Shown here piece by piece: positions 22,021-39,740 of a stretch of 64,000 bases of DNA. The notes beneath the pieces are model-generated. The model ran no database searches, was not told where the DNA came from, and was given only the letters and a program-made list of their open reading frames with translations. Source of the stretch: Gelria sp. Kuro-4 (GTDB lineage Bacteria; Bacillota; DTU030; DUMP01); assembly GCF_019668485.1 (NCBI RefSeq), contig NZ_AP024619.1:1177001-1241000 (forward strand), given 5' to 3'. Each line of letters opens with the position of its first letter. The stretch's first letter is position 1. The position numbers and the translations under genes were made by a program.

Positions 22021-22394
22021 TGCTGGTGACGTAGTGAGACGAGAAGATCACCCCCGTTGCCGCACGCTTGGACGGTTAGGCACCAAACTGCAGAACTACG
22101 GTATCCAAAGAGGGCCTCAGTGAAGGACAAACCCAGCTTTTATTTCCGACCGATCGGCAGAAAAAGAGCCGTCTAAACCTGCTAATTAGCACCACTATTG
22201 TGATAACACGGCAAATACTCGATACAGAGGCTAGGATCCGCCGCCTGAATGCGGGCGTTTGTGGCAGCGGGGAGCCAGTGGCGCAACCGGCTGCTGGACA
22301 AGCAGCTTTTGATTTTTCACGTCAAGGAGGCGAGACACATACCGGCGGTTGAGGAGAACCATCATGCTGCGGAAGAATCTTGGCTGGAGCGGGG
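22021..22394. other. Leader region before the actin-like gene
   Basis: About 370 bases separate the kinase terminator from the actin-like gene. Apart from the doubtful small frame at 22249 no gene is seen and no consensus promoter is obvious. Confidence 0.5.
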
Positions 22395-22398
22395 ATGA
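22249..22398 (+). CDS. Possible small ORF coupled to the actin-like gene
   Basis: A 49-codon frame from ATG 22249 ends at a TGA that overlaps the ATG of the next gene (ATGA). The peptide is helical and charged (NRLLDKQLLIFHVKEARH, HHAAEESWLERG). No strong ribosome binding site precedes it, and a hairpin (GCTGCT / AGCAGC then TTTTGATTTTT, 22290-22317) lies within it, so the stretch may instead be a leader with a weak terminator. Confidence 0.25.
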   Translation: MRAFVAAGSQWRNRLLDKQLLIFHVKEARHIPAVEENHHAAEESWLERG

Positions 22399-23447
22399 GC
22401 AAAAGTAAAACAGCGAGGAAAGAGGTGTTTGTTTCCGTGCAGTGCGTCGTGGGTTTGGACATCGGCTATGGGTTCGTAAAGGTAACGGACGGGGAGTACG
22501 GGTACGCTTTTCCCAGCGTTGTCGGCAACGGCCACACCAAGACCATATATCGGACCTCGCTTCAGGTGGAACGCATTAACGATCTAAGGGTGGTGATCGA
22601 TAACCAATTGTATTTTGTAGGTAAAGCCGCCTTGCGGCATTCCCGGTTTGCCATCCGAGACTTGTCCGACATGCGCACCCAGAACGAAGACCTCAAGGTG
22701 CTGTTCTTGAGCGCCTTGAGCTTCTTCTGCCAGGACAAACAGAACCGGTTTAAAGTGGTCACAGGTATGCCGCCGGGCCGCATGTACCTGGCGGACGACC
22801 TGATAAACAGGTTCGCGCGCGAGTATACGGTTTCGCTTTACCGTAACCGGGCTTATCAAGAGACGACGATCCGTGTTGACGACCTGGATGTTGTGCCCCA
22901 ACCGGTGGGAACTTACTGGGCTCAGACCTTAGACCTGCAGGGCCGGGAGAAGCGTACCTTTGAGGGTCGGGTGGGGATTATTGACATCGGATTCCGGACC
23001 ACGGATTTGGCCGCCATCGAGGACGGGGAGTTTATTCCGAGCAACAGCTATACCATTCCGGTCGGCATATCCGCCACCTACACTGACATCGGTGAGCAAA
23101 TCATAAGTAATTACGGGTTGGACCGCGAGAGCTTCGCCCTGGACGAAAGCGTGATCAAGGGAATGATTACTGTATCCGGGCGGCCGATAGACATTACCGC
23201 TATCCGTAACGAAGCGTTTCAGCAACTGGCAAACAAACTGCTCATTGAAGTCACCTCTAAATGGAGGGTGCTCGACTTCGATCGCCTGCTGCTGAGCGGT
23301 GGGGGTGGTCAGGCTCTGAGCACCTACCTACTAAGCCATCTGCCGCAGGCCGAATTGGTGCCTAACCCCTCCACGGCCAACAGTCGCGGCTACCTATCCT
23401 GGGCCAATCGGCTATGGGGTGATTTTAATTCGGAGGGCGTCCAGTAG
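22395..23447 (+). CDS. ParM/StbA-like actin homologue
   Basis: 350 residues from ATG 22395. Actin-type nucleotide-binding motifs: phosphate 1 'VVGLDIGYGFVKVTDGE', phosphate 2 'GIIDIGFRTTDLAAIEDGEF' and adenosine motif 'LLLSGGGGQALSTYL'. 'VVTGMPPGRM' matches the ParM-like (Alp) group. Such proteins form dynamic filaments for plasmid segregation or other positioning tasks. Here the gene is chromosomal-looking, with no ParR or centromere repeats visible, and is followed by a bactofilin and an M23 peptidase, which points to cell-envelope or shape work rather than DNA partition. Confidence 0.85.
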   Translation: MSKSKTARKEVFVSVQCVVGLDIGYGFVKVTDGEYGYAFPSVVGNGHTKTIYRTSLQVERINDLRVVIDNQLYFVGKAALRHSRFAIRDLSDMRTQNEDLKVLFLSALSFFCQDKQNRFKVVTGMPPGRMYLADDLINRFAREYTVSLYRNRAYQETTIRVDDLDVVPQPVGTYWAQTLDLQGREKRTFEGRVGIIDIGFRTTDLAAIEDGEFIPSNSYTIPVGISATYTDIGEQIISNYGLDRESFALDESVIKGMITVSGRPIDITAIRNEAFQQLANKLLIEVTSKWRVLDFDRLLLSGGGGQALSTYLLSHLPQAELVPNPSTANSRGYLSWANRLWGDFNSEGVQ

Positions 23448-23506: not shown

Positions 23507-24019
23507 GTGCTGGGGCTTCGGACAAACAGACCGAAGATCAGGGAACCTGAAATGGTTGTGCCAGAGACGGTTGTAGAGGTTTACGGCAGAACGGAAGGGT
23601 CCATAACTGGAGCCGATAAGGTCATTGTGGCGCCCACGGGCTGCTGTAAGAGCAATGTTAAAGCAGCTTATCTTGATATTGCCGGGGAAGTGTACGGCGA
23701 TGTCGATGTTGAAGAGCTGGTAATCCGGCGGGAGGGCCGCTTGTACGGCCAAGTAAGGTACAAAAAGTTGATCTTGGCCGAGGGCGCGGTCTTTCGCCCC
23801 AATGACGGCGGGGATGGAACAGAAACCTCTTCAAGACCGGCAGAAAAAGTGGTTGGTCCGCGCTTGGTCTCTCAGGAGGCACAGGCACGGACAGTGCCTT
23901 TGAGGCGAGACACTTCCGCCGGACAGCTGTGCGCAGCATCCGAAGAGAACAAAAAAACGTACCGGGCTGAGGCTCTGGAAAAAGAACAGCAGGAACCTTG
24001 TTTCATCACCAGCTTTTAG
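23507..24019 (+). CDS. Bactofilin (polymer-forming cytoskeletal protein)
   Basis: 170 residues from GTG 23507; ATG 23551 is an alternative start. The core beta-helix (about residues 25-95) shows the stepped pattern 'VEVYGRTEGSITGADKVIV', 'NVKAAYLDIAGEVYGDVDVE' and 'EGRLYGQVRYKKLILAEGA'. The C-terminal ~70 residues are charged and low-complexity. Bactofilins polymerise without nucleotide and recruit peptidoglycan enzymes; a LytM/M23 gene directly downstream fits the widely conserved bactofilin-M23 pairing. Confidence 0.85.
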   Translation: MLGLRTNRPKIREPEMVVPETVVEVYGRTEGSITGADKVIVAPTGCCKSNVKAAYLDIAGEVYGDVDVEELVIRREGRLYGQVRYKKLILAEGAVFRPNDGGDGTETSSRPAEKVVGPRLVSQEAQARTVPLRRDTSAGQLCAASEENKKTYRAEALEKEQQEPCFITSF

Positions 24020-36211: not shown

Positions 36212-36493
36212 GTGGCCGAGCTCAAGCGCATCATGATAACGGTGCCCACCAACCTGCTCCAGGAAGTGGACGGGATGGTCGCCTTGGAAAAAGGAAGCCG
36301 GAGTGAGTTCATCCGCGAGGCGCTGAACCGTTTCTTAGAAGAGCGCAAGCGGCGGGAACTGCGCGATCGCATGAAAAACGGGTATCTGGAGATGGCTAGA
36401 ATAAATCTCGAGCTGGCCGAGGAAGGGCTTCCCAGCGAGGACGATACCGACGAGGTGTTGCAGTCCTTCCTGACCAAAGTGGAGAGTGAGTAA
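36212..36493 (+). CDS. ndoAI: Ribbon-helix-helix antitoxin EndoAI
   Basis: 93 residues from GTG 36212 after ACGGAGGTG. The RHH domain 'RIMITVPTNLLQEVDGMV' and 'GSRSEFIREALNRFLEER' is followed by a helical tail that neutralises EndoA. The stop at 36493 is immediately followed by the toxin ATG, so the two are co-translated. Autoregulation is likely through the site at 36177-36198. Confidence 0.92.
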   Translation: MAELKRIMITVPTNLLQEVDGMVALEKGSRSEFIREALNRFLEERKRRELRDRMKNGYLEMARINLELAEEGLPSEDDTDEVLQSFLTKVESE

Positions 36494-36847
36494 ATGGTGA
36501 TAGTTCAGCGCGGCGACATTTTTTATGCGGACCTACGCCCGGTGATAGGGTCGGAACAGGGAGGGATCAGGCCTGTGCTGGTGCTGCAAAACGACATCGG
36601 CAACCGGTACAGCCCCACCACCATTGTGGCGGCGATTACCTCCCAAATCAACAAGGCGCGCCTGCCCACCCACGTGGAGCTGAAAGCGGAGGAGTTCAAC
36701 CTGGAACGCGATTCGGTGATCCTCCTGGAGCAGATCCGCACCATCGACAAGAAGCGCCTTAAGAGCCGCATCGGTCACCTGGAAGGCGACATCATGGAAA
36801 AGATCAACCACGGGCTGATGATCAGCCTGGGTTTGATCGAGCTCTGA
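36494..36847 (+). CDS. ndoA: MazF/EndoA type mRNA interferase
   Basis: 117 residues. '[20 protein letters not shown]' and '[19 protein letters not shown]' carry the catalytic Arg and the Thr of '[12 protein letters not shown]'; '[17 protein letters not shown]' is the conserved end. It cleaves mRNA at specific sequences (UACAU in Bacillus) and is blocked by EndoAI. Complete and probably active. Confidence 0.94.
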
Positions 36848-36882: not shown

Positions 36883-37740
36883 ATGGAGGTTTACGCCCTG
36901 GTTGGCCCGAGCGGTACGGGCAAGAGCCACCACGCCCAGGCCGTGGCCTACGCGCACGACATCGACACCATCTTGGACGACGGCCTGCTTATCCAGGGAA
37001 GCCGCATTGTGGCCGGCTTTTCGGCCAAGCGCGAGCCCACCAAGCTCCAGGCGGTACGGCGCGCCATCTTCACAGATCCGGAGCACGCCGCCGGCGTGCG
37101 CAGCAAGCTCGCGGAGCTCAACCCGCCCCGCCTTTTGGTGATCACCACCTCCGAGCGCATGTTGGAGCGGGTTGAGGAGCGACTCGGCCTGCCGCCGCCG
37201 GTACAGGTGATTCACATCGAGGAGGTCGCCACGCCCCGGCAGATCGCCCGCGCCCGCGAGGCCCGCGCCCGCGAAGGCAAGCACGTGATTCCCGTACCGA
37301 CGATAGAGGTGAAAAAGAACCTACCCGGAATCCTGGTGGACCCCTTGCACTACTTTTTCCCCTCCGCCGGGCGGGAGCGTAGCCTGCGGCGCGAGGAAAA
37401 GAGCATTGTGCGGCCCACCTTCAGCTACATCGGGCGGCTGTCCATCGCCGAGGGAGCGCTCGGCAGCCTGGCGCGGGAGCTGTGCCGGGGAACGCCCGGT
37501 TTGGCGCGCGTGCTCAAGGTTGCAGTACAAGACGAAAGGCACGAGCTCCGGCTGGACGTGGAGGTGGCCGTGGAAGGGTTCACCCTGATTCCACCGCTCC
37601 TTACTGAGATCCAGCGCCGCATCAAGGGGGGGCTGGAGGAACTCACGGGCCTGGTGGTGCGGGAGGTAAACGTCACCGCGCGGGCGCTGGTACTTCGGAT
37701 GGGACAGGAAGAAGGCTCCGTGCTGGATGATCTCTGGTGA
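36883..37740 (+). CDS. P-loop ATPase fused to an Asp23/Gls24 domain
   Basis: 285 residues from ATG 36883. Residues 1-160 form a P-loop domain with Walker A 'LVGPSGTGKSHHAQAVAY', 'DTILDDGLLIQGSRIVAG' and 'PPRLLVITTSERMLERV'. A basic linker follows ('AREARAREGKHVIP', 'VKKNLPGILVDPLHYFFP'). Residues ~180-280 match Asp23/Gls24: 'SYIGRLSIAEGALGSLAREL', 'LDVEVAVEGFTLIPPLLTEI' and 'GLVVREVNVTARAL'. Asp23 proteins link to envelope stress. The fusion to a nucleotide-binding domain is uncommon and its role unknown. It lies between endoA and hisC. Confidence 0.75.
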   Translation: MEVYALVGPSGTGKSHHAQAVAYAHDIDTILDDGLLIQGSRIVAGFSAKREPTKLQAVRRAIFTDPEHAAGVRSKLAELNPPRLLVITTSERMLERVEERLGLPPPVQVIHIEEVATPRQIARAREARAREGKHVIPVPTIEVKKNLPGILVDPLHYFFPSAGRERSLRREEKSIVRPTFSYIGRLSIAEGALGSLARELCRGTPGLARVLKVAVQDERHELRLDVEVAVEGFTLIPPLLTEIQRRIKGGLEELTGLVVREVNVTARALVLRMGQEEGSVLDDLW

Positions 37741-37866: not shown

Positions 37867-38973
37867 TTGGTGGGCGAGAAGGAGAAACTGTTCCGCAGGG
37901 GGATCGCGGAGATCAAGCCGTACGTGCCGGGTAAACCCATCGAGGACGTGCAGCGGGAGTTGGGTCTTACGGAAGTCATTAAGCTGGCGTCCAATGAAAA
38001 CCCGCTCGGCCCGTCGCCGAAGGCGCTTCAGGCCATGCATGCGGCGCTGGAGACGGCGAACATCTACCCGGACGGGGCCTGCACGGAACTGGCTCAGAAA
38101 CTCGGCGCGAAGCTCAACGTCGATCCCAGCTGGATCGTCTTTGCCAACGGCGAGGACAACATCATCACGCTCATCTCCAAGACGTTCCTCAATGAAGGCG
38201 AAGAGATGATCATGGCCGATCCCAGTTTCTCCAGCTTCGAAATCAGCGCCCGCGCCGTGGGAGCGAAGGTTGTCATGGTACCGGTGCGGCCCGATTTCAC
38301 GACGGACCTGGGAGCGCTGGCCGCCGCCATCACCGACCGGACGAAACTGATCTTCCTCTGCAACCCCAACAATCCCACGGGAACCATCAGCACCCGTAAA
38401 GAAGTGGAGGCGTTCTTGGACAAAGTTCCCGAGCACACGATTGTGGTGCTGGACGAGGCGTACAAGGAATTCGTCGACGATCCCGAGTACCCGGACGGGC
38501 TGAATTACGTGCGGGCCGGGCGCAACGTAATCGTCAGCCGGACCTTCTCCAAGATTTACGGCCTGGCCGGGCTGCGCATCGGCTACGCCATCGGGCACCC
38601 GGACTTCATCGGCGGCATGAAGCGCATCCGCGAGGCCTTCGCCGCCAACCGCATTGGGCAGGCAGGGGCGCTGGCGGCACTCGACGATGACGAGTTCGTG
38701 AAGAGGGTCCACGATATGAACAGCGCCGGGCGCGATTACCTGTACAAGGAGTTCGAGCGCCTGGGGCTGCCGTATGTGAAGAGCCAGACCAACTTCATCC
38801 TGGTGGACACCAAGCAGGACATCAAGCGCGTCTTCCAGGACCTGCAGCGCGAGGGGATCATCATCCGCCCGGGCCACATCTGGAACCTGCCGACGTACGC
38901 CCGTGTCACCGTGGGCACACCTGAGCAGAACGAAAAGTTCATCCGCGCACTGGAAAAAGTGTTGGGCCTGTGA
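37867..38973 (+). CDS. hisC: Histidinol-phosphate aminotransferase family
   Basis: 368 residues from TTG 37867 or GTG 37870 after GAGGGGAGG. Class I/II aminotransferase with 'KLASNENPLGPSPKALQAM', 'ANGEDNIITLISKTF', 'LCNPNNPTGT', 'VVLDEAYKEF' and the PLP Lys in 'RTFSKIYGLAGLRIGYAIG'. Closest to HisC type. No other his genes are in the window, so it may be a stand-alone HisC or an aromatic/phenylalanine aminotransferase. Confidence 0.88.
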   Translation: MVGEKEKLFRRGIAEIKPYVPGKPIEDVQRELGLTEVIKLASNENPLGPSPKALQAMHAALETANIYPDGACTELAQKLGAKLNVDPSWIVFANGEDNIITLISKTFLNEGEEMIMADPSFSSFEISARAVGAKVVMVPVRPDFTTDLGALAAAITDRTKLIFLCNPNNPTGTISTRKEVEAFLDKVPEHTIVVLDEAYKEFVDDPEYPDGLNYVRAGRNVIVSRTFSKIYGLAGLRIGYAIGHPDFIGGMKRIREAFAANRIGQAGALAALDDDEFVKRVHDMNSAGRDYLYKEFERLGLPYVKSQTNFILVDTKQDIKRVFQDLQREGIIIRPGHIWNLPTYARVTVGTPEQNEKFIRALEKVLGL

Positions 38974-38979
38974 TATAAT
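38974..38979 (+). promoter_or_regulatory. Possible -10 box of the folT leader
   Basis: TATAAT begins directly after the hisC stop codon. The -35 position (38951-38956) reads TGGAAA, a weak match. Confidence 0.45.
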
Positions 38980-38992
38980 CGCTGCAAGGTTT

Positions 38993-39085
38993 GGCAGAGT
39001 AGGCACCGTGCGTTAAGTGCCAAGGGATGGGACGTGGCCTTTGGACGAAGGGCTGGACCCGCGGTGCGGTGCCGCGTTCGCTGTC
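38993..39085 (+). ncRNA. THF (tetrahydrofolate) riboswitch aptamer
   Basis: The conserved THF-I blocks appear in order: GAGTAG (38997-39002), CGTTAAGTG (39011-39019), GGGATGGGACG (39024-39034), GACGAAG (39044-39050) and GCGGTG (39061-39066). P1 is GGCAG/CTGTC (38993-38997 with 39081-39085). P2 is GGCACCG/CGGTGCC (39002-39008 with 39067-39073). GGACG in the P3 loop (39030-39034) can pair with CGTTC (39075-39079), the family pseudoknot. It precedes a FolT-type transporter gene, the usual target, and folate binding should lower expression. Confidence 0.9.
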
Positions 39086-39097
39086 ACATCAGAGGGG

Positions 39098-39139
39098 CCC
39101 TTCCCTTTGGTGTGGCTCTGCCACGACCAAAGGGAAGGG
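39098..39139 (+). promoter_or_regulatory. Expression-platform hairpin overlapping the folT ribosome binding site
   Basis: CCCTTCCCTTTGGT (39098-39111) pairs perfectly with ACCAAAGGGAAGGG (39126-39139), with an inner stem GTGGC/GCCAC. The right arm runs into the GGGAGG ribosome binding site (39137-39142). No T-run follows, so translational control rather than termination is inferred. Confidence 0.75.
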
Positions 39140-39150
39140 AGGTGAAGCTG

Positions 39151-39690
39151 GTGCTGAAAGGTACACAGCGGCTGGCTTACCTGGCGCTGCTGGTGGCTCT
39201 GGGTGTGGTGCTGACGCGCGTGGCCAGCCTGCGCGTGGCCATCGGCGGCGTGGAAGGCATCCGCATAGGCTTTGGGGGGCTGCCGGCCATCCTCGCCGGG
39301 GTGCTGTGGGGCCCGGGCGCAGGAGCGCTGGTGGGCGGACTGGGGGACGTGATCGGCTACTTCGTGAATCCTATGGGGGCGTACATGCCGCACTTCACCC
39401 TCACCGCCGCCCTCACCGGGGTGCTTCCGGCCTTGGTTTTAAAGCTGGTGCGCCAGGAGCGGCACCCCGGCCTGGGGGCGCTCCTTCTGGCCATCCTGGT
39501 AGGGCAGACGGTGACTTCCCTCATCCTGGTGCCGTATTTCCTGCAGGTTCTCTTTGGGATTCCCTGGCAGCCCCTGCTGGTGCCGCGCCTCATCGGGCAG
39601 GCCATCCACGTTCCGGTTTACGCCTTCTTCATCTACGCCCTGGTCCGGCGCGCCGACCTGGCGGGCAAACTGGGGTGGAACCACCAGTAG
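39151..39690 (+). CDS. folT: ECF transporter S component, folate (FolT)
   Basis: 179 residues from GTG 39151, 9 bases after GGGAGG; GTG 39142 is too close to that site. Six hydrophobic segments in the S-component pattern start 'LAYLALLVALGVVLTRVASL'. 'GFGGLPAILAGVLWGPGAGA', 'VGGLGDVIGYFVNPMGAYMP' and 'HFTLTAALTGVLPALV' are typical of FolT-type proteins. It binds folate at the membrane and docks with the shared EcfAAT energising module, which is not in this window. The THF riboswitch directly upstream supports the folate assignment. Confidence 0.88.
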   Translation: MLKGTQRLAYLALLVALGVVLTRVASLRVAIGGVEGIRIGFGGLPAILAGVLWGPGAGALVGGLGDVIGYFVNPMGAYMPHFTLTAALTGVLPALVLKLVRQERHPGLGALLLAILVGQTVTSLILVPYFLQVLFGIPWQPLLVPRLIGQAIHVPVYAFFIYALVRRADLAGKLGWNHQ

Positions 39691-39709
39691 GACCACAGGA
39701 CCAGAGAAC

Positions 39710-39740
39710 AAAAGGAGCGGTTAACGCCGCTCCTTTTGGT
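39710..39740 (+). terminator. Terminator of folT
   Basis: AAAAGGAGCGG and CCGCTCCTTTT pair around TTAACG. Confidence 0.85.

Follow-up and report, generated by a model that had tools for sequence, protein, structure and literature searches.

How does the binding of a folate at the start of a message reach the ribosome binding site of folT? In the window (the whole stretch of 64,000 nucleotides that we analysed), a preliminary description had placed a tetrahydrofolate (THF) riboswitch upstream of folT and a hairpin at the ribosome binding site, and had left the connection between them unstated. We propose that this connection is supplied by an anti-sequestor helix, 39083–39096 with 39103–39116, predicted from the sequence to compete both with the base of the aptamer and with the hairpin.

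The folT leader carries a THF-I aptamer

The call of a THF riboswitch held up in a covariance-model search, which matched the THF-I family RF01831 over all of its positions (1–99 of 99) with 75.9 bits against a cut-off of 36 (E = 1.3e-15). This is the sole RF01831 match in the 2.88-Mb genome. The aptamer comprises the following parts:

38993–39085, forward strand: THF-I riboswitch aptamer, P1–P4 (RF01831, 75.9 bits)
38993–38997, forward strand: segment A, the P1 5′ strand GGCAG; with its flank (38988–38998) it can pair with 39117–39128
39030–39034, forward strand: L3 half of the pseudoknot, GGACG
39075–39079, forward strand: J2/1 half of the pseudoknot, CGTTC

All 29 pairs of the model are standard pairs in the window, and both P1 (GGCAG/CTGTC, 38993–38997 with 39081–39085, one G–U) and the P2/P3/P4 junction are present. 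P1, P2 and the P3-loop pseudoknot, which had previously been drawn by inspection, are thus recovered and the pseudoknot pairs located. In an alignment of 110 related leaders the pseudoknot is paired in 93.1% of cells, compared with 33–68% for slid versions, and four of its five pairs show changes on both sides. By every feature tested here the element is a THF-I riboswitch, ordinary in kind, and its ligand in the folT leader is expected to be THF or a derivative.

Genomic context and folate supply

The leader that contains the aptamer is that of a folate gene, whose assignment to folT was borne out by a match well above threshold:

38951–38979, forward strand: promoter-like site TGGAAA-17-TATAAT with TG before the second box (10 of 12 matches), overlapping the end of hisC
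39151–39690, forward strand: folT, folate ECF transporter S component, 179 aa, GTG start (TIGR04518, 126.6 bits, cut-off 60)
39709–39738, forward strand: terminator-like hairpin after folT, 13 pairs, loop of 4, T-rich tail

In L003 and L006, the two closest relatives, the chosen start is likewise a GTG, and the one at 39151 aligns with it. Upstream lies hisC (TIGR01141, 357.8 bits, cut-off 276.55). Promoter-like sites of this quality occur twice in 1,301 bases, against 0.2 expected, and from its position the one listed would place the transcription start a few bases 5′ of the aptamer. The promoter-like site overlaps the hisC stop codon, and the same letters are found 5′ of the aptamer in L003 and L006.

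We searched the genome for other sources of folate. One FolT and four CbiQ/EcfT-like places scored above cut-off (the ECF module was searched by CbiQ/EcfT only), and FolC is present (411 bits). DHPS, FolE, HPPK and FolE2 gave no match in the genome; the same searches were positive in 13, 11, 11 and 5 of 14 control genomes, respectively. The absence of these matches indicates that the organism probably lacks the usual folate synthesis and depends on FolT. Within a search limited to the usual synthesis route, uptake is therefore probably the folate source and the switch probably guards the only route for folate; feedback control of a sole importer makes sense.

Other features were noted elsewhere in the window. 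A c-di-GMP-II riboswitch (22217–22300, forward strand; RF01786, 56.8 bits, cut-off 53.5) lies upstream of an actin-like ORF (22380–23447; PF17989, 98.9 bits), which is followed by a bactofilin ORF (23507–24019; PF04519, 59.7 bits), and c-di-GMP control of these two cytoskeletal genes is predicted. Nearer to folT are a toxin–antitoxin pair (36212–36847, forward strand), in which a ribbon-helix-helix protein (PF01402) is directly followed by a PemK/MazF-like protein (PF02452, 127.7 bits), and an ORF (36883–37740, forward strand) whose C-terminal part matches Asp23 marginally (28.9 bits, cut-off 28) and whose N-terminal part matches IPT below the cut-off (19.5 bits against 20).

Two mutually exclusive pairings follow the aptamer

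The sequence between P1 and the start codon can be divided into three further segments and the ribosome binding site:

39081–39096, forward strand: segment B, the P1 3′ strand (39081–39085) plus linker; 39083–39096 is the 5′ arm of the anti-sequestor (14 pairs)
39098–39116, forward strand: segment C, the 5′ arm of the sequestor by pairing; 39103–39116 is also the 3′ arm of the anti-sequestor
39117–39139, forward strand: segment D, the loop and 3′ arm of the sequestor; 39118–39122 (CTGCC) is a second strand resembling the P1 3′ strand
39137–39142, forward strand: ribosome binding site GGGAGG, identified by sequence and pairs; 39137–39139 lie inside the hairpin

The sequestor hairpin has 14 perfect pairs (39098–39111 with 39126–39139), a bulged G39125, five more pairs (39112–39116 with 39120–39124) and a UCU loop, and alone it is worth −35.3 kcal/mol. 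The fold of the leader (38985–39165) has z = −3.06, with 1 of 200 shuffles equally stable. The perfect 14-bp helix of the preliminary description is exact. It covers GGGAGG in part: only GGG at 39137–39139 is paired, leaving just two of the five bases of GGAGG covered. Positions 39140–39144 are mostly unpaired in both states (folds with P1 or the anti-sequestor enforced), and any block to the ribosome must therefore be partly steric.

The competing helix joins GTCACATCAGAGGG (39083–39096), whose first three bases are the last three of P1 and the remainder linker, to CCCTTTGGTGTGGC (39103–39116) by 14 contiguous pairs, three of them G–U (−23.3 kcal/mol alone). Because 39103–39116 lies wholly within the sequestor 5′ arm, P1 plus sequestor and the anti-sequestor are mutually exclusive. 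Energies computed with a fixed aptamer core change as the transcript grows: for 3′ ends from 39116 to 39135 the anti-sequestor beats P1 by 3.5 to 10.6 kcal/mol, and from 39139 on P1 plus sequestor is the more stable by 4 to 5 kcal/mol. The unpaired probability of 39136–39139 is 0.90–0.97 with the anti-sequestor enforced and 0.00–0.02 with P1 enforced. The dependence of these energies on transcript length suggests an early decision during transcription, with ligand holding P1 until the sequestor forms; stabilization of P1 by ligand at the pseudoknot is described in published work (PMC11477058).

Two other pairings were considered and dropped. In the first, the P3 5′ strand (CCAAGGGATGGG) would pair to the 5′ arm of the sequestor; by eye, this is lost in divergent relatives such as Halanaerobium. 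In the second, the linker CATCAG pairs with the region of the start codon in the platform fold of the window, as it does in a few leaders.

Both pairings recur in related leaders

A first set of 61 genomes, made up of relatives and the window's own, gave RF01831 matches in 20, and 398 genomes sampled from the phylum gave them in 89. Named genomes supplied 65 folT loci; the aptamer scan covered 60 of these (L082–L086 were left out), and 39 have it. Removal of copies reduced 133 aptamer loci to 122 distinct leaders, 114 of which have a folT relative within 800 bases (tblastn, E < 1e-3). Start codons were chosen with a distance penalty, a lower penalty having put some (for example, those of L052 and L116) too far downstream. 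Twelve leaders with at least 95 bases from aptamer to chosen start were left out of the alignment, which holds 110, and also out of the P1-decoy tests described below.

We used an alignment-free test to ask whether each leader has a binding-site zone in a hairpin, a P1 3′ strand that pairs downstream before the hairpin 3′ arm is made, and folds that share bases. The strict form was passed by 103 of 122 leaders (19 failed) and 288 of 2,440 dinucleotide shuffles, and the looser form by 104 leaders and 636 shuffles, counts that are not independent, as the leaders are related. After thinning, the strict test was passed by 51 of 59 leaders at <75% identity and 34 of 41 at <65%. The window passes both forms.

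In the alignment, P1 plus sequestor is paired in 72.5% of cells (slid versions, 46–60%) with 192 double-change cells against a shuffled mean of 95.4, and the anti-sequestor in 66.2% (slid, 43–56%) with 108 against 65.7. Two measures for the anti-sequestor did not exceed those of the shuffled alignments: how many of its pairs show double changes (307 of 500 shuffles as high) and how many pair types occur (175 of 500). The apical part of the sequestor is paired in 40.1% of cells, in a region where the alignment, judged by eye, is off by one base for the window's group. RNAalifold, run on the same alignment, returned only the aptamer, leaving the platform unpaired and giving no support for its helices, which may be explained by the competition between two helices.

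Exchanging arms between leaders gave a further measure. In 108 leaders (14 of the 122 were left out), in which each leader's own arm was compared with arms of dissimilar leaders, the anti-sequestor energy was −18.4 kcal/mol with the own arm and −12.2 with swapped arms, and the corresponding values for the sequestor were −19.4 and −13.6; a swap thus costs either helix about 6 kcal/mol. Own arms ranked in the best 5% in 40 of 108 leaders for the anti-sequestor and 45 of 108 for the sequestor. The covariation and swap tests mostly agree with the alignment-free test. Sequence and comparison together thus support the aptamer, the two exclusive pairings, and their conservation and covariation.

The 5′ strand of P1 may also be exchanged

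When the anti-sequestor is enforced in the window, 38988–38998 pairs with 39117–39128, in the sequestor's loop and the upper part of its 3′ arm, through 11 pairs and one bulge. Of 110 leaders, 56 have in their trailing platform an exact 5-base complement of the P1 5′ strand (50 set shuffles: mean 5.9, maximum 12). Among leaders with P1 GGCAG/CTGTC, 17 of 20 have CTGCC, and the P1 3′ strand recurs in 2 of 20. The second P1-like strand in the hairpin follows changes of the P1 5′ strand, and both strands of P1 may thus be exchanged.

In a simpler account, B–C against A–B plus C–D is the whole switch, and the P1-like strand in D arises only in passing: C has to be complementary to the P1 3′ strand, and D in turn to C. 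Part of the likeness does follow from these other two pairings. The GCC of CTGCC is explained in this way; in many leaders these bases are paired within the sequestor. The simpler account also fits the absence of exact complements from leaders with P1 AGCAG (0 of 8), GGTAG/CTGCC (0 of 4) and GGTAG/CTACC (0 of 2), and the A–D pairing seen in 55 of 110 anti-sequestor-enforced folds is also seen in 137 of 550 shuffles. However, in 25 of the 56 leaders the sequestor fold leaves the site's first two bases unpaired, and these still match P1. Moreover, 7 of 9 GATAG/CTGTC leaders have CTATC, which fits the P1 5′ strand and not the P1 3′ strand, and in a thinned set without GGCAG the match is exact in 8 of 31 leaders, against 1.45 when P1 strands are redealt (0 of 2,000 as high). 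On this evidence we regard a single exchange as having about an even chance of being the whole switch. That THF-I folT leaders across the phylum keep a four-segment platform in which both P1 strands are re-paired without ligand (B–C and A–D) is plausible, although we lean somewhat against it. If true, the conserved RNA would extend over about 160 nt instead of stopping at the 99 positions of the aptamer, and switching would involve exchange of both P1 strands.

A model for control of folT translation

When reduced folate is abundant, the THF-I riboswitch very probably represses folT translation through four competing segments, A–D. Without ligand, B would pair with C once C is transcribed (the 14-pair anti-sequestor), the binding-site end of D would stay open and folT would be translated; in this state the P1-like part of D may be a partner for A. 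Binding of THF or a derivative at the pseudoknot beside P1 would keep helix A–B in place, C would pair with D, and the resulting 19-bp hairpin would hinder ribosome loading. The OFF response to ligand, the co-transcriptional timing and the use of A–D pairing are the steps that we infer. Translational control is reportedly also what the 2010 discovery paper on THF-I proposed for most cases.

The hairpin could instead be a terminator or pause site, with the switch acting mainly on transcription. In 39 of the 122 leaders at least five consecutive T lie between the binding site and the start codon, and the same hairpin could end transcription there; in these leaders (L018, L104, L021 and others) the sequestor could double as a terminator whose stem contains the binding site. 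In the window, however, no T-run lies 3′ of the hairpin (GGAGGTGAAGCTGGTG), as the preliminary description had observed, and its preference for translational over terminator control fits for that reason; a terminator scan reported no terminator there. We consider an action mainly on transcription improbable for folT here. A decayed switch, in which a constitutive hairpin (−35.3 against −23.3 kcal/mol for the anti-sequestor, and the winner at full length by 4–5 kcal/mol) has removed folT from aptamer control, is very improbable, as the aptamer core and the 14-pair anti-sequestor are intact in the window and kept in the near relatives L003, L006 and L008.

What makes the element of interest is its platform, which is unusually conserved and testable: with comparison supporting two mutually exclusive structures, the switching step could be probed with a few compensatory mutants.

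Comparison with known systems

THF-I riboswitches (RF01831) are described upstream of folT, folE and folC in Gram-positive bacteria, with the pseudoknot, and a defined switching sequence is described as joining aptamer and platform (PMC9881143). The window shares with them the aptamer sequence, P1–P4, the pseudoknot and the downstream gene. Whereas the Rfam model stops at P1, sequence and comparison show that the next ~65 bases here form a conserved bistable platform. Riboswitch expression platforms are said to be usually too variable for covariation study (PMC13273304); here the comparison of about 120 leaders supports two mutually exclusive structures. In the parts of that whole-riboswitch covariation study considered here, tetrahydrofolate is named in the reference list only (PMC13273304). 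A search of the open literature by title and start of abstract, a scope outside which the founding THF-I papers fall, found no description of the platform, and we therefore claim no novelty for it.

THF-II riboswitches (the folE motif), as described, also sense reduced folates and hide a ribosome binding site; they differ in that the site lies in the aptamer's own P1, and in having another structure, in other bacteria, upstream of folE (PMC6800512, PMC9881143). A likeness in mechanism is to the yxjA purine riboswitch, in which the decision is reported to be made by exchange of strands during transcription (PMC9756952). That riboswitch controls transcription, whereas the folT leader is predicted to control translation, possibly with both strands of P1 taken over.
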